Origin: Acanthamoeba castellanii str. Neff
Lineage: Eukaryota; Discosea; Longamoebia; Acanthamoebidae
NCBI RefSeq assembly: GCF_000313135.1
Contig: NW_004457380.1
Location: forward strand, 975,188-997,962
DNA length: 22,775 nt
Reading direction: 5' to 3'
Shown piece by piece: positions 2,118 to 21,568 of this stretch. The stretch's first letter is position 1; each line of letters begins with the position of its first letter. The notes under the pieces are model-generated. The model had not been told where the DNA came from and made no database searches. It was given only the letters and a program-made list of their open reading frames with translations. The translations under genes and the position numbers were made by a program.

Positions 2118-5100
2118 TCATTCCTCCTGGTTGGCGGTGGGGGCGTCGTTCTTGAGGGAGAGCTCAACCAGCCCAAAGATGCTGAGCGCCTTTTGCACGC
2201 GTTCCTGGATGCCGGCCAAAGTCAGTCTGAGGTGTGATGACTCGCTGATCATCCTCCTTTAGCCATTTCATGCGGGGCGAAGGGGCACCTTGGATCGTTC
2301 TTCGGCGACGAGGCGCTTGACGCCGGAGAGAAGGCGGAAAGGACCCTCGCACGACCCACGATGGCTCACCCGCCAATGCAAGTTCTGTAATCGCGCGCGA
2401 TTTGTGCATCATTCGTCAAACTGTTGCAGCCCCGCAAAGCACCACCTCGATCGAGGTGTGGGCGAGCGTCGGCGTACCTGGTGTTCAGGGCCGCAGTAGT
2501 GGACCAGGCGGCACCCCGAGCACACGCGCAGTTGGTCCACCCGACTGCAGATGGCGCACCTCCTCTTCATCGCTGCACGTCACGACGGGGTGGGATTCGA
2601 GTGTTGGTAACTGTACGACACGACACACGCATACATCGCACGCGTGTGGCACGTACCGATTTGATTGGCGAAAGCCGAGCGCCAGTTGGTTTGGCTGCGG
2701 GCCGCCTCGAAGCAGAAGGGGAACGTGCGCAGGAAGATGGTGCGCCACAGGACATTGTCCTCCGCCAGCGTCTGGAAGAAACTCGAGGTCTGCCGCATCG
2801 CACAGGCGTCCCGCCCGTACGCGAAACCCAAAACCTGCCGGAGCGGCCGCCATCAATACTAGACGTGTGCGTGTGCGTGTGCGTGTGCTGCGTGTGCGTG
2901 TGCGTGTGCGTGTGGCTAGGTGGCGTACCCGAAGAATGATCTCCTGCGGAAGGTTCTCCAGGTAGCATTCCTCCTGAACCGCCTGCTCTGCGTTCTCCTG
3001 AGCTTCTTCGGGGAGGCCTTGCTCCAAGTCTGTGCTTTCGCTTTCGCATTCGTCTTCGCTTTCCTCTCCGGCTTCGTTATCTTCGCTTTCGCTCTGCTCG
3101 TCATCTTCGCTTTCGTCGTGGCCGTGCCCGGGCGTCAGCTGGGCGGGGGTTAGGCCACGGTGGTTGACCGCCTCTGCGTCACACCCGGCCCGGTCCCGCA
3201 GGTAGGCCACCGCGTCGTCGTTGCCCACCTGGTAGGCCAAGTGCAGCGCCGTGTTGCCCTCGCTGTCGCGTGTGTCGACGTCCGCGCCGTGGGCGCCTTC
3301 GATGAGCAGGCGCAGCACATCGACACTGTCCAGCATGGCGGCCAGGTGCAGGAGCGACTCCTTGAGCTGGCGCACCGCCTGCGAATCTGACTCCTTGCCG
3401 AGCCGCTTTTCTTCGGCCCGGACCAGCCACATGGCGACGTCGTAGTGTTCGTTCATCAAGGCGAGGAATGCGGGCGAGAGAACCGCACCGTCATCAGCTT
3501 GACCGCCATAGCTGACATTCTTCGACTTGTCGGCCTTTTGGTAGAGCATCTGGACGATGAGGAGGTGGCCGTGCGACGCGGCGGCGTGCAGCGGCGTGTG
3601 GGCGTTGTCGTAGGCTTCGATGTCGACATCCACATCCGGTTGGCGCAGCAACCACGATACGGCATCCGATAGGCCCAGCTCCGCCGCCCAGTGCAGCGCC
3701 GTGTGGCCCTCGTAGTCTGCACGGACATAAAAAGCCACGGTCAGCCCTCCAATCGGACATAAAAACTGCACACGAGGGAGAGCAGGATGTACCCTGCCAG
3801 TTGACGTTCATGTGGGTACCACCTCGCGCTTGTTGAGCGTGGTGAGCGCGTGCAGTGTGTCAGCGTCTCCGTTAACCGCGGCCCAGATTAGGGCCGTACG
3901 CCCATGATGATTGTCAGTGTCGTCCAGGTTGACGTACCGGCCCACTGCACAGTTGCGCCGAAACATTAGGTGAGTGTGTGCGGTGGGGCGTGTGTGTGCG
4001 CGCGCGACGTACACTTGTCCAGAAGGAGCTTGACCGCAGCGGTGACACCCTTCATAGCGGCGACGACGAGCGGCGTTTCGCCCCGGGCGTTGGTCCAGTT
4101 AACCACCATCTGCAGTCGCTGCACCCTGTCGTCGTGCTCCTCGCTGAGCAGACGGTCGATCAGCCGCTCAAGATCGCGCAGCTTCTCCCTGTTGATCATT
4201 TGCATGATCTGCTGACTCGTTTGCTTGGCCTGCAGCAGCAGCTTCTCGGCCTCCGACCGCTGCTCTTCCTGCAGCCGCCGGTCCTTCCTCTTCTGCTCCT
4301 TCCGCCGGCGCCGCTTGCGCTTATCCTCGCGGATGGCCTCCTGCTTGGCCTGCTGCCACTGCATCTTCTCGGCGCGGCCGAAGGGATTCACCATCCCGCC
4401 GCCCTCGAGTATGGACGCGAACGCGGGTTCGCTCCACTCCCCCGCGCCGAGCGAGTTGGCGGCGCGCACGCGAAACTGGTAGTCGCCCTCGGCAAGCTCC
4501 ATCGCAACCACACAATGATTGTCTGCAGCGTCCCGTGACAGACAATTGTGACACCTGGTGAGTTCAGTAAACATCGCACAGCACACGGCTGCATACGACA
4601 CGACACACGACACACGACACACGACACACGACACACGGCCACACACGACACGACACACGACACACGAACGAACCAGTTCCCTCATAGACGGTGGTTGGCT
4701 CGGCCCCGTCGGTCTCCATGCCCACGGAGTATCTGTAGTCCGCACTACTATCGAGTGGGGTCCACGACACTGCGAGCGGGGTTTAGTACGCCAACTCGAG
4801 CTTTGGGGTGCGGGTAGCTGCGCACCATGAATGCACGAGCGGATGAACTTGACGGTCGGGCAGCGCATCTTGGCCGGCGCTCCGCTGGTGATCCGAAGCA
4901 CGTCGTGCTGGCCGTTCTTCTTCGCTTTCTTAGCGTCCCTTATGTCCGCCATTCCTGCATTTGAGAGAGCGGATGCGTCAGCGCACCAGCGACACGAAAC
5001 GAGGGCGCGTCTTATGCAGCGGGCAAGTACTCAGCTCGTCCTTGTCCTGCTCGTGAACGCACAGGTAGAGCGTGTGGTTCCCCATGTCGTTGTAAACTCG

Positions 5101-6384
5101 TCTCTTCTGGGTGTCGCCGACCACGGCGTAGGCCTGTCAAAGAGAGGGAAGTGTTAACGTCATCGCACAGGGAAAGTGTCATTTGCTGGTGTTGCCGAGA
5201 CCTACCTTGGACAGGAGTTGGAACATCTCTGTTGACGACTCGCTGTCGCTCCTGTCCGGATGGTAGCGCTGCACAGACGATCACGAGGTGAAGACATGAA
5301 TGAGGAAAAGGTATCCATTCGAATGACCGAACAAGAAGATGAAGACGTGATGGTAGGTACGTACCAGGGCGATCTTCCTGTACTGCAGCTTGAGGGCGTG
5401 AGTGAGCTTTTCCACCACTTGCTCCTCGCGATGGGCCAGCTCCGCCATGCGGACGGACACGGCCTGCAGCAGAAACTCGTGCTCCAACCGCCGCTCGTGC
5501 ACACTGTAGGCCCAGATCATAAGCATCAGCACAACAACGACGACATAAATGACAACGACAAGAACAAGAACGACGACAACAACGACAAACCTGGCCAGAT
5601 AGTGCTCGGCGTCGTCCGCGCCGGTATGAGTCAAGATGGTTTCCCAGTCCTCCATGTACAGCTCTTCCTGTGCCAGGGCGTCGCCGCGCTTGGCGCGCAC
5701 CTTGCGGCGGCGCGCCCGCTCGCGCTTGTCCTCCTCCACCAGCTTGCGCCGCAGATCGGCCAGGTTCTTGTTGTGCCGGGCGAGTTTGTCTCGCAACCGC
5801 TTCTCCGCCCGCTTGTCCACCAGCACACGCCCGGCTGAGCTGTCTATCGCATTGTCCGCCTGGTGCTGCTGATGGTCGTCGTGGGCGTCATCACCATCGT
5901 CAAAGACATCGTCAAAGGCACCATCAAGGCTGGGCTCGGCGTCGACGCTGACATGGAGCATGCGCAGGAGCTTGGCCTCGACTTCGGCCGCCTCTTGCTG
6001 CTTGGCCCTATACTTCTCCAGCAGATCAGCTTTCGCCTGAGCTCCGCACACGATTCACCGCGTATAAGACCTCAGTGCCGGCGACGACACGCGTGCGCAA
6101 TGACACACACGCAACGGAGAACGCAAAGCGAAGGGGAAGAGGAGATGCCTGATGGTAGTGGAGGACTTTGGCGGTCTGGCGCATGGTCACCGCAAGGGTT
6201 TCGCGGGCCGCACGCAACTGCTGTTCCTCGACGACCAGGCCCACTGCCGGGTGCTCACAGTCCTTCAAACCCAGCAACTGATAGAACAGGAGTGGTTGCC
6301 CTGCGCGAGTTGGATGCGATCAATAAATCTATCGCATCTTCCAACACCAGTGTAGAGCGTGCACGCACCAGTGTTGCTCTCCAT
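2118..6384 (-). CDS. J-domain, FN3, ankyrin, F-box and MYND multidomain protein
   Basis: Fifteen exons (high to low): 6384-6369, 6300-6149, 6036-5591, 5503-5365, 5268-5206, 5133-5031, 4954-4826, 4769-4674, 4522-4013, 3944-3823, 3765-2929, 2834-2657, 2572-2478, 2384-2289, 2240-2118; about 1034 residues in one frame. Residues 60-200: acidic and basic coiled coil. Residues 205-295: J domain, YRKIALRYHPDRS with HPD at 254-256, then AYAVVGDTQKRRVYNDMG; a normal helix I is not obvious. Residues 330-415: FN3 (HVSWTPL, YQFRVRAANSLGAGEWSEP). Residues 425-500: basic coiled coil. Residues 525-790: about six ankyrin repeats (GHTALHWAAELG, NTALHLAYQVG). Residues 800-850: acidic. Residues 862-905: F-box (LENLPQEIILRVL, TLAEDNVLWR). 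Residues 936-974: MYND finger. F-box suggests an SCF adaptor and the J domain an Hsp70 partner. Weak joints: a GC-AG intron at 6148, the donor at 5030 joining J to FN3, a 16-residue insert at 3765, and a CGAG acceptor at 2241. Confidence 0.75.
2864..2914. repeat. Intronic GTGTGC repeat
   Basis: A GTGTGC hexamer repeat fills most of the 94-base intron (2835-2928) that splits the F-box of the J/FN3/ankyrin gene. Read through, it would give a run of Thr-Arg pairs on the minus strand, so an unspliced reading would be an artefact. Donor gtacgc and acceptor ccggcag flank it in phase 0. Confidence 0.8.
4595..4668. repeat. Intronic ACACG repeat
   Basis: An ACACG/ACACACG microsatellite occupies the centre of the 151-base intron (4523-4673) inside the FN3 domain. 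The flanking exons join as TVYEGT then DNHCVVAMELAEGDYQF, which rebuilds a normal FN3 strand pattern, so the repeat is intronic. Confidence 0.85.
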
Positions 6385-12597: not shown

Positions 12598-14945
12598 TTA
12601 GTGCCAGGCGATGGCGACGCTGGGGAAGTGCTGCTTGGCCTCCTCCCACTCGATACGGCTGATCTGCGTGCACCCGCCGATCTTGAGCTGCGTGATGCTC
12701 GTCCGATGATGGGCACCGCCGCCCTTCCTCTTCCGTCGGTTCTTGTTGCGCTTGCGCCGCTGACCGGCGGCCTGGGCCGCCAGCGCCTGGCCGGCCTTGG
12801 CGCCCACCAGGACCCACGGCAGCTCGCCCTCCTCATCCACCATCAGCCGTGGTTGCTCCTCCACCTTCTTTCCCTTCGCGTTCTTCTTCTTCTTCGTTGT
12901 GTGGTTGCTCGGCTCTGGTTGCTGCTCGTCATCGTTGTCCGGCTGCTTGCCCTGCAGGAGGTCTTCGACGCCGAGGTGGGTGACGTTCAGGCACTTGGAG
13001 AGGTCGAGCACGCGCAGATTGGCGCATTGCCTGAGGTGGTGCAGCCCGTCGTCGGAGACCCGCTCGCAGCCCTCCAGGATCAACTCCTCCAGCGCCACCT
13101 CGTGTTTCTTTCAGGCGAATTGTATGGAGTTAGTCAAACAGTACGCGGTGCCAACAACAAGCAGCCCGAGCGGCAAGGCAAGGTGTGGTACCTCTTCATC
13201 TCCGACGCCAGCCAAACAGGCCAGGGCGACGTCGGACAGACTCTCGCAGCCCTTGCAGTTGAGCTTCTTGAGACGGGGCATCAGCGGGAAGCAGAGATCG
13301 CCCGGAATCTCGCCGCTATCGATGTCCTCGCTCATCTTGTTGATATCCGCAGCCCGCTGGCGCCGAGGAGTCGCACGAACCTCATCCAGCGCAATGAGCG
13401 GGTAGGACTTGAACGCCTTCTCGGTCAACTCCGTGCAGCTCTCTAAAGTGCGACAGCTATGAGAACAAGGGTCGAATGGAATGGTAGACAGTACATGGAG
13501 GGCATGTGTGTATGTACCGATGTTCAACGACACGACGTGCCGCAGCTGGTTGGTGATGAAGATGAACGCGCCGTCGGTCAGTGTTTGCGGCAAGTGGAGT
13601 GTGCGCAGACTTTCGGGCGCCGAAATCTGGTCTAAGAAGAGGCCAATGATACCTGCGCACAAAGCACGCACGCCGAGATGAGTACAGCGCAGACAAGGTT
13701 GAATGAGAAAGGGAACGTTAGAGTCGACGCCAGAGCGAGGCGACTCCCCGAGTAGTGGATTTGTACCTCGCGCGGTGATGTTCGAGCACCCAGCGAGGTT
13801 GAGCGTTTCGAGATGCTCCCCAAAAGGCGTGTCGTCCAGGAATGCTTCGTCTGTGATGTTGGCACAGCCTGTAGAGGAGGCTGCGCGTGAGCAGACCTGG
13901 ACGTGCTGGCAGCCACCGTTGAGTCTCGATAGGGCGTACCCTCGAGGTTGAGATATTTGAGCTTCTTGCAGGTCCCCTTGATGGCCTGGAGACCTGCGTT
14001 GCCAATGAATGATACGGCCACATCGAGATGCTCCAAGTTGACCTGCAGCTTGATGCGCGAGAATGAAGTGTCGCTGACCTCCCAGCAGCCTGAGGACATT
14101 GCATTGTGAGAAAGGCGAACACAACAGAAAGCAGGGGGGAACGTTTACCGCCAAGACTTAGGGTCTTGAGCTGCGGGCAGCGGTCAAAGAGCTGGGTGGC
14201 CGATCGATCGGTGATGCGCGGGCAGTGGGTGAGATCGAGCTCCTCCAAGCCAGCGAGGCGAGCAGCCACGCGGAGCAATGCGCTATCGCCCAGCTTGGTC
14301 ACCGCACCGAGACGGAGGCTTGTGATTCCTGTACATGCATGTGTCGTTAGCAAGCGGCAAAAGGTTGATGTCGCGTTCACACTGTGTCGATGATCGTACC
14401 AGTGTTTTCGGCAATGGCCTCGAGAGCGCTGTCCTGCAGCTTGTTGCAACCAGTCAGGTCCACGGACTGCAGACACCGCAGCCGACGCGCGAGGTCGAGG
14501 ACCGCCGGGTTGGTGATCTTGAAGCACGTCGCGAGGTTGAGCCGGCGAATGCGCTGGGCTCGCTTGGCCACCTTGAAGCAAAGAAGAGCAAGGTGAGGTG
14601 AGGCAGAAGCCGAGAAGAGGGCGCTAATGATGGGAAGGGAATGCTAACCTGTCTGATGAAGTGGTCGGTGATGTAGCCACCACACTCGTGCAGATCAAGC
14701 TGGACCAGGGACGAGTTGAGGAACATGACGAAGTTGGAGAGGGTGAGCTTCTTGCGCAGGGCGAGGGCGTTGAGGATCTGCAGGGCGAGGTGGTCGGGCA
14801 GCGTGTATTCGTCAAAGGCGGTGAGGAGGTAGCGGCAACGCTCGAGGTGGAACTCCTCCACGCCCTGGCACCACAGATTGATGTTGAGCGCGATCGACTT
14901 GATGCAGAGCTTCGTCAGCGTCGGGGCTTCACGTGGCAGCTTCAT
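12598..14945 (-). CDS. Leucine-rich-repeat protein, FBXL/AMN1-like
   Basis: Eight exons (high to low): 14945-14649, 14571-14400, 14328-14149, 14089-13940, 13868-13767, 13652-13518, 13442-13192, 13107-12598; 598 residues, all phases consistent. The N-terminus (MKLPREAPTLTKLCIKSIAL) leads into LPDHLALQILNALALRK, which resembles an F-box-like helix. The remainder is a chain of cysteine-containing LRRs of about 25-28 residues: LNLATCFKITNPAVLDLARR, LTGCNKLQDSALEAIAEN, LDLTHCPRITDRSATQLFDR, LNLAGCSNITARG, LILEGCERVSDDGLHHLRQC, LDLSKCLNVTHLGVEDLL. This LRR class forms the substrate-binding arc of FBXL ubiquitin-ligase adaptors and AMN1. Near the C-terminus a charged insert of about 90 residues (NDDEQQPEPSNHTTKKKKNA onwards) splits the last repeats (TSITQLKIGGCTQIS). 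Adaptor function is inferred; some LRR_CC proteins have other roles. An extra 5' exon cannot be excluded. Confidence 0.8.
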
Positions 14946-15639: not shown

Positions 15640-17377
15640 ATGATGATTAGCGGTGAGCCGGCATTGCGCGTGCCCTGTGCCTTATTCTGTTATAACACGC
15701 GTGGCACGCCCGAACAGTGTCAAGGGCATGGCAGGACTTGGTGTCGGGCATCGCAAGCGGCGTGTCCATCGTCGTAGCTGGCCATCCTCTGGACACCGTA
15801 CGTCTGTGTGCGATGTTGGGTGTCGTGCTTCATCAGTGCACTTATGTTCAGTGGGCATTCGTCAGATCAAAGTGCGCCTTCAGACACAACCCATGCCCAA
15901 GCCAGGAGAGGCGCCCCAATTCAAGGAGTCATCGATTGTGCGGCCAAAACCATTCGACACGAAGGGGTAATAGCTACGCACTGACGCATCCGCTCGCCAC
16001 GGCGTCCGATTCTAAGGGTGTATGTGTGCGTTGTTGCGCAGGTGCGAGGGTTGTTCAAGGGGATGGTGAGCCCACTTATGGGCGTGCCTCCAATCTATGC
16101 TGTGGTCTTCGGCGTCTACGGCAGCACCAAACGGTGCTCCTCCTCTTCCTTTGTTCCCAGCCGGTCGCTGGCGAGTGCTTACCCAACTTACGGTGTGCCG
16201 GCGAGCAGGTTGATGGGTGAAACGGCGGACACTCCACTCGCCATCAACAAGATAGCACTGGCCGGAGCGATCACTGGCCTTGCCACTGTGGTGCGTGATA
16301 CGGCGCAAGCAGACCTTGTCGTTTGTTGTTCACTGTTTCCCCTATCCCGTTTGCAGGCGTTCGCAGCACCTGCCGAGGCGATCAAGGCGCGGCTGCAGGT
16401 GCAATATTCATCAGCGGCCGGCTCGGCCCGCTACTCGGGCCCGGTGGATTGTGCCAAGCAAATGTATCGAGTACGTAACACCTCACCGACGACGACCCAG
16501 GCGGCAACCGGCAGCTAAGGCCTAACTTTTGTTGGACTGCGACTGGGTGCAGGCAGGTGGTATTCGGGGCGTGTTCAAGGGCACTGCCATCACAGCGTAT
16601 CGAGACGTACCCGGGTATAAGCTGTCTCACATTCCATGAGAAGCAGCATCGCCACTCGTTCTAACCTGACCGCCACCAACAGAAACGCGATCTATTTTGG
16701 AGTGTATGAGATGGTCAAGCGTTGCTTCATCCCCGCTGGTGGATCGGCTCGGGTGCGCCACCTCACTCACTTCGTTCGGTTTCTCATCTCGATGACCTTA
16801 TATTGATCGCTTGTGGTCGGGGGTCTACGACAGGACGTAGGGCCGCTGCCCATGATGTTGGCCGGCGGCCTTGCCGGCACGGCCACCTGGTTGACGGTGT
16901 ATCCTTTGGACATCGTCAAGTCGAGAGTACAGATCGATGTGACGGGTATTCTCTCTTTGCGCTGTGTGTGTGTGTATGGTGTGTGGGAGAATGGCTTTTC
17001 TATATATATATATATATATATTAGAGCGAGAGATGCATAGTGCCCAACTCTTATGTACCTATGTGAATGTGAATGTGGATCACGTACAGGCAAATATGCG
17101 CATGGCCATCGAGGACTGTGGCAGGCGTACAAAGAGATCGTGGCCGAATCGGGAAGCGTGCGGGGACTCTACCGCGGCATCACCCCCGCCCTCCTTCGCT
17201 CCTTCCCTGGTACCTACCCTCTCCCATCATCACCATCAGCACCAGCTTCCAGAACACTTGTGCGCACTCAGCTCACGTAATTGTCTGTGCGTGTGTCGTG
17301 TGCGCACAGCGAATGCCGCGTGCTTCTTGGGCTACGAGATGTCCATGCGACTGCTCCACTTCCTCTCCCCATCGTGA
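15640..17377 (+). CDS. Mitochondrial carrier, carnitine/acylcarnitine-like, one-base gap
   Basis: Eleven exons: 15640-15652, 15718-15797, 15866-15966, 16042-16133, 16209-16290, 16357-16470, 16553-16614, 16683-16752, 16834-16945, 17090-17209, 17310-17377; about 304 residues, the usual carrier length. Three ~100-residue repeats carry the family signature: GHPLDTIKVRLQTQP (about 26-40), PAEAIKARLQVQ in the middle, and YPLDIVKSRVQID near the end, each starting a transmembrane helix. Helix ends such as GVRGLFKG-like VRGLFKGMVSPLMGVPPI, GIRGVFKGTAITAYRDVPG and VRGLYRGITPALLRSFPANA are present. The last resembles the PANAACFLG end of carnitine/acylcarnitine and ornithine carriers (SLC25A20/29/15 branch) of the inner membrane; the exact substrate is not proven. 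Exon 3 has one base too few: PQFK and GVIDCAAKTIRHEG are in different frames near 15925, with one G missing. All other joints are in frame. Confidence 0.85.
17001..17022. repeat. Intronic TA repeat
   Basis: About eleven TA units lie in the penultimate-but-one intron (16946-17089) of the carrier gene. It is a simple microsatellite. Confidence 0.9.
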
Positions 17378-17930
17378 TGCACAGCACAGCGACATCACAC
17401 AAACAAAACACACTGGCGTCGGCAAGAATCGATTGAACACACTGGCGTCGGCAAGCTAATAAGTTGTTGGAATCTTGTCGACTAATTACGCCGCAAAGGA
17501 CAACAAGAGAGAAGGGAGCCTTTGAGCAACACGGTGGTTTTGGGCATCCGACACACCACCTCCGGTACTACTCGTAGTCATTCGCCAGTTCACTCTCTCT
17601 TCTACGGCCTTCCTTCTTTTCAAAACCCACCGCTTTTTGAACGAGGTACAGTTCCGAACTCATCTTCTTCTTCTTGTCCGTCGTTCGTTCTTCCTTTTCT
17701 TCTTTGTTAGTTCGTCATCCTTCTCCGGCAACCTCCGTTTCGATTCATCACTTGTCACCCCTCCTTGTACTCTCTCTCTCTTCTCTCTTCTCTCTTTTGC
17801 TTGTTGTATTGCTATACAACGGTCGCACAGGCCTCGCACTTGTTTCTCATTGATTCTCTTTCTCTTTCCTTTCAATCAAATCAAATCAAGACGCAGTTAG
17901 TTGCACACAAGAGGACGCACGGAGAGGAAG
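17378..17930 (+). other. Carrier 3' end and LIM gene promoter/5' UTR
   Basis: This 553-base gap separates two plus-strand genes. Its left part is the carrier 3' UTR with a 20-base direct repeat. From about 17590 to 17880 the strand is strongly pyrimidine-rich, with CTCTCTT runs at about 17770-17805, as in a 5' UTR or core promoter of the LIM gene. No TATA box, gene or RNA is evident. Confidence 0.5.
17407..17455 (+). repeat. 20-base direct repeat in the carrier 3' UTR
   Basis: AACACACTGGCGTCGGCAAG occurs at 17407-17426 and 17436-17455, 29 bases apart and identical, starting 30 bases after the carrier stop. It could be a local slippage duplication or an mRNA-binding site; nothing decides this. 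Confidence 0.85.
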
Positions 17931-20900
17931 ATGGCGAAGCGGATCAACAACCCCTTCTTGGCACTCGACAAGCAAAAGCAGGAGGAGGAGGAGCGCAAGC
18001 GACGCTACTACGAACAGAAGATTCGTGAACGCCAACAGGGCGGCGGCACGACGAGCAGCAGCCCCGACCTGTCGTCTTCGCTCTCGTCCTCAGCCACAGA
18101 AGATGTCGCCTCGAGGCCCGTCGGCACTGTCGCCAACGGAAATTCCGCCGAGTCCACTCATTCTGTCGACAAAGAAAAGGAAAGAGAAAATCAGGAAAAG
18201 GAGAGAGAAACGAAGGAGGCCGAGGAGCGGCGAGGCAACGTGAAGGAGGAAGAAGAGGGCAGCCACAAGGAGAAGGAGGAGGAGGGCGGCCACCAGCAGG
18301 AGGAGAAGGATGAGAACGGGGAGACCGAGGCCCAGCGCCTGGCGCGAGAGGACCGCGAAAGGCGCGAGCAGGAGAAGCTCCTGGTCAAGGGCGAAGTAGA
18401 GGAGAAGAAGCGCAGCAACCCTTTCCTCTTGCTCGACCGTGAAAAGGTACCTTCTTGCCAAATGTTGCAAATTTTTTGTCTCTTCCTACTTTCCTCCTTC
18501 GCACATGCTACACGATGGAGACGTGTACTGACTCGACATGCAACGTCGACGTTGCCTCTCCACATACAGCAAAAGCAAGAGGAGGAGCGCAGGAACCGCT
18601 ACCTCGGTGGTCGTGGCACGTCGCAGCGCGCTACCAGCGAAGTAGCAACCACGGCCGCCGCCGAGCCTGCCGCGGAGCAGGAGCAGGAGCAGCAGAGCAA
18701 CGCCAACGATGACCACGCTGTCGAGGCCGACGAAAGCGCTCCGGCTGGTGGTGCGGCGGACGTGGACGCTGAGCTGCTCGAAGAGGAGGAGAAAGAGCTG
18801 GCCCGCCTCGAGGAGGAGAAGCGCAAGGCCGACGAGCTGGCCCGCCTCGAGGAGGAGGAGCGCGAGCTCGAGCGGCTCGAGGCCGAAGCCCGCAAGCTGA
18901 AGGAGGCCCAGGAGGCCGAAGAGGCCGAGCTTCGCAAGCTCGAAGAGGAGGAGAAGGAGCTCGAGCGTGAGAAGGCCCGTCTCGAGGAGGAGCGCCTCGC
19001 CAAGCAGCAGAAGCAGCAGGAGGACGAAGAGGCCGAGCTCCGCAGGCTCGAAGAGGAGGAGAAGGAGCTCGAGCGCGAGAAGGCCCGCCTGGAGGCTGAG
19101 CGCCTCGCCAAGGAGCAGAAGCAGAAGCAGGAGGAAGAGGAGGCCGAGGCCGAGCTGCGCAGGCTCGAGGAGGAGGAGAAGGAGCTCGAGCGCCTTGCCA
19201 AGCAGAAGCAGCAGGAGGACGAGGAGGCCGAGCTCCGCAGGCTCGAAGAGGAGGAGAAGGAGCTCGAGCGCCTCGAAGCCGAAGTCAGAGCCCAGCAGCA
19301 GCAAACCGCGGCCGCAGCGGAGGAGCAGCAGGCCGACGACGACGAAGAGGCCGAGCTGCTCGCTGCGTTGGAGGAGGAGGAGCGCCAGTGGCAGGAGGAG
19401 CGTGACGCCGAGCAGGAGAAGATGGTGCAGGAGCTGAACGAGCAGAAGTCGCGCCTGGCCGAGGAGGAGCGCGAGGAGGACGCGTGGGAGGTGCAGGACG
19501 AGGCGACCCGCGCCAAGCGCCGGGCCGACCACGCCGCGTTCGACGCGCGCGAACTCGAGTGGGCCGACGCCGACGACGCCGGTGCTCGCCAGCGCGGCGA
19601 CAAGCGCCAGGCGGCCCTGGCCGAGATCGACCGTCTCACCGCCGACGAGGAGAAGGAGCGGGAGAAGCTCGCCAAGCTCGAGGCCGAGCTGCGACAGCTC
19701 CTCCAGGAGGAGGAGGAGAGCGATGGCGCGCCCACGCCCGCGCCCGCGGCGGCGGCGGTCGAAGCAAAGCCCGTCGCGCAGGCCGCGGCCGGCAATGATG
19801 AGGAGCTCAAGCGGCTGCAGGAGGAGGAAGATGAACTCAAGCGCCTCGAGGAGGAGGAGGCCGAGCTCAAGCGGATGGAGGACGAGCTCCAGGAGCTCGA
19901 GCGCAAGCGCCAGCGCGAAGCCGACCTGGAGCGCGAGCTCGAGGAGATCATGGAGATGGAGGAGGAGCTGGCTCGCCTCGAGGAGGAGGAGGCCCAGCTG
20001 GCCGAGATGCGGCGCGTCGAGGAGGAGCTCAAGCAGCTCGAGGAGGAGCAGCGCCTCGAGGAAGAGCGCGTCGAGAGCGAACTCAAGGAGCTCATGGCCC
20101 GCGAGCAGAGCCAGCAGCAGCCGTCGCCCGCCGCCGCGGAGGAGACCGAGGAGGAGCGCCTGCGCCGCGAGGAGGAGGAGCTGGCCCGCATGGAAGCCGA
20201 GCTGGCCGCCGCCGAAGCTGACGTGGCAGCGCCCGCCGCCGCTGACTCGACGTCTACATCGACGCCTGCGGCCAGCGCCCCCAATCCCAATGCCGGCGGT
20301 GTGGCCAACAAGCCCAAGACGCAGAAGGAGAAGGAGGAGGCGTGGCGCAACAAGATCGGGTCGGGCGACGACGAGGGCGGATCGAAGGCCAAGGAGGAGG
20401 AGATTCGCCGCAAGAAGGAGGAGGAGCGACAGCAGCTGGCGCGCAACGCCAAGGTGGGTCGCATCGCCTCCATGTTCACGGGCGAGGTCAAGGAGCGCGA
20501 CAGGGCCGAGGAGGCGCGCGAGAAGGAGGAGGAGATGCGCCGCATCGCCGAGGCCGTCAAGGAGCGCAAGCAGGAGAGCGCGTTCCTCAAGGGTCCCGAC
20601 GACGACAGCGCCGACAGGCACCAGAAGGAAGTCGAGCGCGAGGAGGCCCTCCCCAAGACGCCGCGCAAGAACGTTGAAGAGGAGTGGAAGAAGAAGGTCG
20701 AGCAGGAGGAGAAGGAGAAGCGCGAGAAGGAGGAGCGCGAGAAGCAGCAGAAGCTGGCCAACCGTCGCAGCGTGAAGATCACTGAGGAGGACTGGAAGAA
20801 GAAGATCGAGGAGGAGGAGCGCGAGAAGGAGCGGGCCGACAGCGAGGCGGCGCGCAAGAAGGAAGAGGAGATGCGCCTCATCGAGGAGGAGCGCAGGCGC

Positions 20901-21568
20901 AGGAAGGAGAGCGGCGGCGACGCCCCGGGGTCGACGACGACGTCGGAGCCGCACCCGCGCGAGACGGTCAAGGCTGGAACGGTTATCGAGCGCGGTCCCC
21001 ACGGCGGCGTCCAGCGAGCCGCGTCGGCGCCCTCAATCCCAGCAACCACGGCCGGCGGCGGCAGCGGCATCCAGCGACCGGTGTCGGCCGCCCCGAGCCC
21101 GGCCACGGCCAACAAGAAGATCACAGTCCGCGGCGATGCGTGCGCCGTGTGCGCCAAGACCGTCTACATCAACGAAAAGCTCTCGGCCGACGGCAAGATC
21201 TTCCACAAGCTCTGCTTCCGGTACCCAACAGTGTTAAACGCAGTGTGTGCGGTGACGCGCTTTGTGTGCACTCGCTGACTCTGGTATGTGATCATCGTTT
21301 GCACATCAGATGCGCGCACTGCAACAAGACCCTCTCCCTGGGCAACTACGCTGGTCTTGAGGGCAAGCTCTACTGGTACGCTCCTCTCCTCTGCAAGCTC
21401 TCTTCCTCTTCCTCCAGGTATACTTAATCTACTCCCCCTCCTCCTTGTAGCAAGCCGCACTTCAAGCAGCTCTTCAAGCTGAAGGGCAACTACGCGTCGG
21501 GCTTCGGCGGCCAGACGCCTGTGGAGGAGTGGAACCAGCAGAAGTCCATGCGCGCTCAACAGCAGTGA
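17931..21568 (+). CDS. Long charged coiled-coil protein with C-terminal EPLIN-like LIM domain
   Basis: Four exons: 17931-18446, 18570-21220, 21310-21375, 21451-21568; 1116 residues. The N-terminus MAKRINNPFLALDKQKQEEE contains an NPFLxLD-K motif that recurs at 163-184 (NPFLLLDREKQKQEEERRNR), the intron falling inside the second copy. Residues 200-1000 are almost entirely Glu/Lys/Arg/Leu heptad-like coiled coil (repeats of AELRRLEEEEKELER), with Ala/Pro-rich breaks near 600 and 770 and three EExW-K/N-K-I/V modules (AWRNKIG, EWKKKVE, DWKKKIE) later. The end is one LIM zinc-binding domain: C1030, C1033, H1051, C1054, C1057, C1060, C1078, H1081 with standard spacing. KPHFKQLFKLKGNYASGFGG after it resembles the LIM of EPLIN/LIMA1, an actin cytoskeleton protein. 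LIM domains bind proteins, often in adhesion and actin structures; a scaffold role in the cytoskeleton is inferred. ATG 17931 is chosen as the first ATG in frame. Confidence 0.85.

Follow-up and report, generated by a model that had tools for sequence, protein, structure and literature searches.

An Acanthamoeba gene joining a J module, FN3, ankyrin repeats, an F-box and a MYND finger: a possible chaperone-linked SCF adaptor

The minus strand of the window (the whole 22,775-base stretch of Acanthamoeba castellanii str. Neff contig NW_004457380.1 analysed here) carries what is most likely one real gene, running from 6384 to 2118, in which a J module, a fibronectin type III (FN3) domain, ankyrin repeats, an F-box and a MYND zinc finger are joined. 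It is an unusual combination of known parts. Judging from the sequence, the chances are about even that its product is both a class-C J-domain protein and an F-box protein, serving as a chaperone-linked adaptor of the Skp1–cullin–F-box (SCF) ubiquitin ligase. A rebuilt exon chain reproduced the strand, the ATG at 6384 and the stop at 2118 given in a preliminary description of this DNA, and the rebuilt model likewise has 15 exons; the 1034 residues predicted in that description had been given without a sequence, and the rebuilt model holds 1006, including one X.

Pfam searches of the spliced model (the 1006 residues with their single X) returned five domain types in the order previously claimed, J, FN3, ankyrin, F-box and MYND, of which FN3 is the weakest. 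Four of the five exceed the curated cut-off, these being 25 bits for fn3, 24.3 for F-box-like, 20.5 for the second F-box family (PF00646) and 22.7 for zf-MYND. The domain features, with expectation values (E), are as follows.

5074..5397, minus strand: J-domain helices II and III with the His-Pro-Asp (HPD) motif (Pfam DnaJ, 46.3 bits, E 4.6e-12, profile positions 16-63)
4407..4901, minus strand: FN3 domain in exons 7-9 (Pfam fn3, 22.0 bits, E 1.8e-4)
3136..4100, minus strand: ankyrin repeats in exons 9-11 (Ank_2, E 1e-36, in three stretches; Ank in five stretches)
3034..3115, minus strand: acidic Glu/Ser-rich linker, a tandem repeat, between the ankyrins and the F-box
2733..2964, minus strand: F-box in exon 11 and exon 2834-2657 (Pfam F-box-like, 34.1 bits, E 2.4e-8)
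2349..2558, minus strand: MYND zinc finger in exons 2572-2478 and 2384-2289 (Pfam zf-MYND, 31 bits, E 2.7e-7)

The HPD motif noted earlier is present (codons 5262-5254), the helix II/III consensus is kept, solved J domains match the module with E down to 1.8e-8, and hits to the NCBIfam DnaJ models coincide with that of Pfam DnaJ. Of the solved F-boxes, that of FBXW7 (5ibk, E 3.1e-5) gives the best alignment, in which LP.E and LAEDN.LWR are shared. The MYND finger matches ZMYND12 in 9d2f (E 8.8e-5), and its translation reads CAIC, CSGC, YC, H, H, C, filling with C or H all eight positions of the ligand consensus. The FN3-like reading is retained because of a match to a solved FNDC3A domain (PDB 2crz, E 3.9e-6) and because of 30% identity over 77 columns to the FN3 of another locus, C99. 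AlphaFold2 applied to exon 11 alone gave a poor model (mean predicted local distance difference test score, pLDDT, of 50.4) that was not used.

These domains are distributed over the exons of the rebuilt chain as follows.

6369..6384, minus strand: exon 1, with the ATG at 6384 (donor GTGCGT, acceptor GCGCAG)
6149..6300, minus strand: exon 2, containing FYQLLGL (6286-6266), a candidate displaced J-domain helix I
5591..6036, minus strand: exon 3, predicted to form two long helices flanking an acidic loop
5503-5365, 5268-5206 and 5133-5031, minus strand: exons 4, 5 and 6, J domain
4954-4826 and 4769-4674, minus strand: exons 7 and 8, FN3
4522-4013, minus strand: exon 9, end of FN3 and first ankyrin
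3944 to 3823 or 3793, minus strand: exon 10, ankyrin
3717..3823, minus strand: exon 10/11 junction, a one-base slip between the halves of one ankyrin repeat
ending at 2929, minus strand: exon 11, ankyrins, acidic linker and start of the F-box
2834-2657, 2572-2478 and 2384-2289, minus strand: exons 12, 13 and 14, end of the F-box, then MYND
2118..2204, minus strand: exon 15, the last, with the stop

All 14 introns are short (56-151 bases). Leaving intron 10 aside, every one ends in AG (13/13) and 12 of the 13 begin with GT, the GC start being that of intron 2; half of the donors (7/14) begin with GTACG or GTGCG. The GC content at third codon positions (GC3) lies between 0.72 and 0.88 across 15/15 exons, a range given without a random-frame control. 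Simple repeats fall within introns 11 (2863-2926) and 8 (4598-4667), and scans with Rfam and for tRNAs returned no matches.

It had been asked earlier whether transcripts might break off between exons 5133-5031 and 4954-4826, or between the ankyrin and F-box parts. The ankyrin and F-box parts sit on one exon: the last ankyrin (3136) and the start of the F-box (2964) lie within exon 11, and no splice is therefore needed for this one of the two doubted joins. The end of FN3 (4407) and the first ankyrin (4100) are likewise both contained in exon 4522-4013. The join between the J module and FN3, from 5133-5031 to 4954-4826, crosses a 76-base intron (GTACTT...AAATGCAG) with usable ends, and it is here that the window might instead hold two genes merged by splicing across 5031/4954, one encoding J (or J and FN3) and the other FN3/ankyrin, F-box and MYND. 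This join is a predicted splice, and at locus C99 roughly 1 kb separates a J match from an FN3 match. There is no AATAAA inside the gene: between 7200 and 1900 on the minus strand the signal occurs only at 6552-6544, past the end of the upstream gene. However, AATAAA is also missing from the 3' end of this gene itself, so its internal absence is weak evidence and an internal gene end could escape notice. Against a division, the exons are just 76 bases apart with usable splice signals, GC3 is 0.88 and 0.81 on either side of the intron, and the FN3 domain itself spans exons 7-9. Two genes appear improbable, and the material is treated in what follows as one gene.

Several observations weigh against the reading of this gene as an intact chaperone-linked adaptor. 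The fn3 score of 22.0 bits is below its cut-off of 25, and the PF00646 F-box model gives 12 bits against a cut-off of 20.5. The intron 2 donor, following exon 2, is weak and of the GC type (GCATCT). The frame slips by one base at the exon 10/11 junction. Finally, the J domain match begins at helix II, covering profile positions 16-63 of 63 and having a similar extent against solved J domains and the NCBIfam models, and candidate positions for helix I directly before helix II scored negatively at 20/20 offsets at all three lengths; a helix I might instead be displaced.

Given that no contiguous helix I is present, the product is classed as a J-module protein and not as a canonical J-domain protein. 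The helix-I-like motif FYQLLGL lies about 230 residues upstream of helix II, and LFYQLLGL, from residue 10, is the top helix-I-like stretch of the whole protein at lengths of 8 and 11 residues and ranks second at 16 (scoring rows came from 7/8 fetched J loci, L008 having been dropped, plus locus L029). Shuffles of residues 1-237 reached its score in 77/5000 cases at 8 residues and in 473/5000 at 11, while real open frames yielded 8 equally good 8-mers in 54,859 residues, or 0.035 per 237, a background that is probably too high because the loci used for it partly contain this gene and the L029 J domain. As a sequence resemblance, a displaced copy of helix I is suggestive only. Between the motif and helix II sits exon 3, for which single-sequence AlphaFold2 (148 residues) predicted helices at 2-28 and 67-137 with a mean pLDDT of 70.1; the model resembles an inserted helical arm, which is again suggestive only. 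Such an N-terminal arm would be an insertion within the J domain, leaving helix I at the extreme N-terminus.

The slip at the exon 10/11 junction bears on the preliminary description's claim of an uninterrupted reading frame across 15 exons, which does not hold at this point: the ankyrin reading shifts frame there. Exon 10 encodes an ankyrin helix pair whose end is TLNKRE and reads in one frame as far as TLNKREVV; a few bases later its tail reads MNVNWQ in another frame, followed by a GTACAT donor at 3792, a GTGCAG acceptor and then DYEGHTALHW (boundaries set by hand). The most natural exon 10 would end at 3793, with an intron at 3792-3717 (also by hand), making the exon 152 bases long and leaving the frame off by one. 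The pieces on either side of the slip together read as an ankyrin hairpin, and an exon 10 run to 3793 gives a repeat of about 40 residues, inside the 33-41 of the other repeats. Counting introns of at least 30 bases, 30 GT-AG or GC-AG pairs at the junction would keep the frame, each of which, by eye, removes ankyrin residues or adds unrelated ones; the plainest bypass (donor GT at 3822, next exon from 3708) leaves a 27-residue repeat as against neighbouring spacings of 37 and 35 (by hand).

Single-base slips are frequent assembly errors, and an indel in the assembly is the likeliest explanation of this one. It is also conceivable that the slip is real and marks a damaged or decaying allele, whose product would be only a J-FN3-ankyrin protein or none at all; exon 10 continued in frame does run into a stop, and the remaining ankyrin sits in another frame. 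The exons downstream nevertheless hold their GC3 of 0.72-0.88, and the F-box and MYND consensus in them is intact; both would have been lost from a gene long dead, and a damaged allele appears quite unlikely.

With its five-module architecture, its HPD motif and an F-box aligning best to FBXW7, the protein can reasonably be read as a chaperone-linked SCF adaptor. In such an adaptor the ankyrin/FN3 part, and perhaps MYND, would pick clients; the HPD-bearing J module would stimulate Hsp70 on them; and the F-box would bind Skp1 and deliver the clients to the SCF ubiquitin ligase. In this way the clients of Hsp70 would be passed to degradation. This interpretation had been offered before. The DNA does encode the five modules with the HPD motif, but the frame is not clean at one junction and helix I is not in its usual place. 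A single multi-domain gene might instead have no SCF role, its product being a J scaffold that directs Hsp70 to a particular complex from an ankyrin/FN3/MYND platform, with an F-box that is vestigial or binds Skp1 for some other purpose. Protein binding is a general property of MYND and ankyrin modules, and the PF00646 score is under its cut-off, both of which would suit a scaffold; the F-box-like match is above cut-off, however, and keeps residues common to FBXW7, and we regard the scaffold as possible but doubtful. An adaptor of the SCF ligase remains the reading that we carry forward.

The gene's own genome (38.4 Mb in 250 contigs, with the best candidates scored) was searched for relatives, and no second gene of such architecture was found in it with either residues 1-592 or the F-box-MYND tail as the query. 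Residues 1-592 gave 12 matches, nine of them the gene's own exons and three J-region matches elsewhere at 40-43% identity, and the tail gave 13, of which five were own exons and eight were F-box or MYND stretches elsewhere (31-41%). Every match outside the gene covers one domain region only. Family searches across the genome found 32 J, 23 MYND and 11 fn3 matches, together with 150 F-box matches scored out of 452 candidates. These searches miss domains that are split by introns, the gene's own J, FN3 and F-box being absent from the lists, and a sister gene could therefore escape detection. In viral contigs, 20 pattern matches were obtained and none was confirmed. Among the matches listed by a full-text literature search, no title or abstract opening describes such a fusion, which is not proof that it is unpublished; a database entry for the gene may well exist.

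The J and FN3 matches at locus C99 are on one strand, and on sequence grounds this pairing may be an older module in the genome. At locus L029, a J domain and an FN3 separated by about 1 kb on the minus strand (~6150-4600) possibly belong to one gene, maybe with an RRM-like stretch (by eye). Two candidate loci were rejected. At C172, proposed as an F-box and MYND pair, the F-box is about 3.5 kb from MYND, and the MYND stretch appears by eye to be an ankyrin-MYND gene; the F-box row first assigned to this pairing belongs to C168. An actin exon on C172 has Actin-1 of Acanthamoeba (4efh) as its second-best match among solved structures, with many other actins close to it, which is weak evidence for the Acanthamoeba origin that GC content, short introns and genome size also suggest. 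At C9, J and F-box matches lie 3.4 kb apart on one strand and resolve by eye into separate F-box/WD40, MORN and DnaJ genes.

The window contains further genes. The upstream neighbour on the minus strand (~8150-6557) encodes a protein that matches DJC28_CD (PF09350, E 1.3e-8) but no J model, and the N-terminus of this protein, in a rough hand splice, resembles by eye a mitochondrial leader; in DNAJC28 the DJC28_CD domain occurs alongside a J domain. A convergent F-box open frame occupies 317-1738 on the plus strand (F-box-like, E 7.3e-11); within it, at 1354-1699, a 123-base unit is repeated in tandem 2.8 times. Farther away are weak leucine-rich-repeat and F-box-associated leucine-rich-repeat matches below cut-offs (13111-14623, minus), a mitochondrial carrier match (15985-16518, plus, E 3.2e-9) and a 1125-residue open frame on a strongly A/G-rich strand (17901-21278, plus; AT skew ~0.55 at 19001-21000), which carries 108-base and shorter repeats and has no Pfam match at E 0.01.

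If Hsp70 recruitment and SCF docking do occur in one protein, the choice between folding and destroying a client would become open to study as a hand-over within one molecule, and a route of chaperone-linked ubiquitination would exist without the TPR/U-box proteins of the CHIP type. If the protein is only a lineage-specific scaffold, it would be another curious case of domain shuffling in an amoeba.

Known systems share parts of this design. In FANK1 FN3 is followed by ankyrins, as here, and J, F-box and MYND are not known from it; the amoeba protein differs further in the charged, probably helical segment between FN3 and its ankyrins. Ankyrins and an F-box occur on one chain in bacterial AnkB (5k35) and in the poxvirus ankyrin/PRANC proteins, as they do here; neither group is known to have J, FN3 or MYND. 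The AnkB structure is among the weak solved-structure matches (E 0.49), with no sign of common descent. SCF adaptors such as FBXW7 likewise combine an F-box with a repeat domain that possibly holds substrates, whereas the amoeba repeats are ankyrins, they precede the F-box, and a J module is present.

The DNAJC proteins offer a parallel for the N-terminal part: in them too an HPD-bearing J module is fused to unrelated binding modules. Helices II-III of the amoeba protein match those of DNAJA1, DNAJB12, DNAJC5 and others in the PDB, but in it helix I does not directly adjoin helix II. DNAJC proteins are not known to carry an F-box or MYND. Neither 'F-box' nor 'ankyrin' occurs in the available part of the main text of a 2026 review of DNAJC proteins (PMC13254874). 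The N-terminal and C-terminal parts together could form a triage switch on one polypeptide, in which a J domain split by a helical arm, client binding by ankyrin/FN3 and a Skp1-recruiting F-box would join Hsp70 to SCF, a fuller proposal that is unlikely as it stands. The nearest working counterparts of a chaperone-linked SCF adaptor are CHIP/STUB1 and DNAJB2, in each of which a single polypeptide couples Hsp70 to ubiquitin-dependent degradation. CHIP employs TPR and a U-box and DNAJB2 employs ubiquitin-interacting motifs, and neither is known to have an F-box; the route taken by the proposed switch would differ from both.

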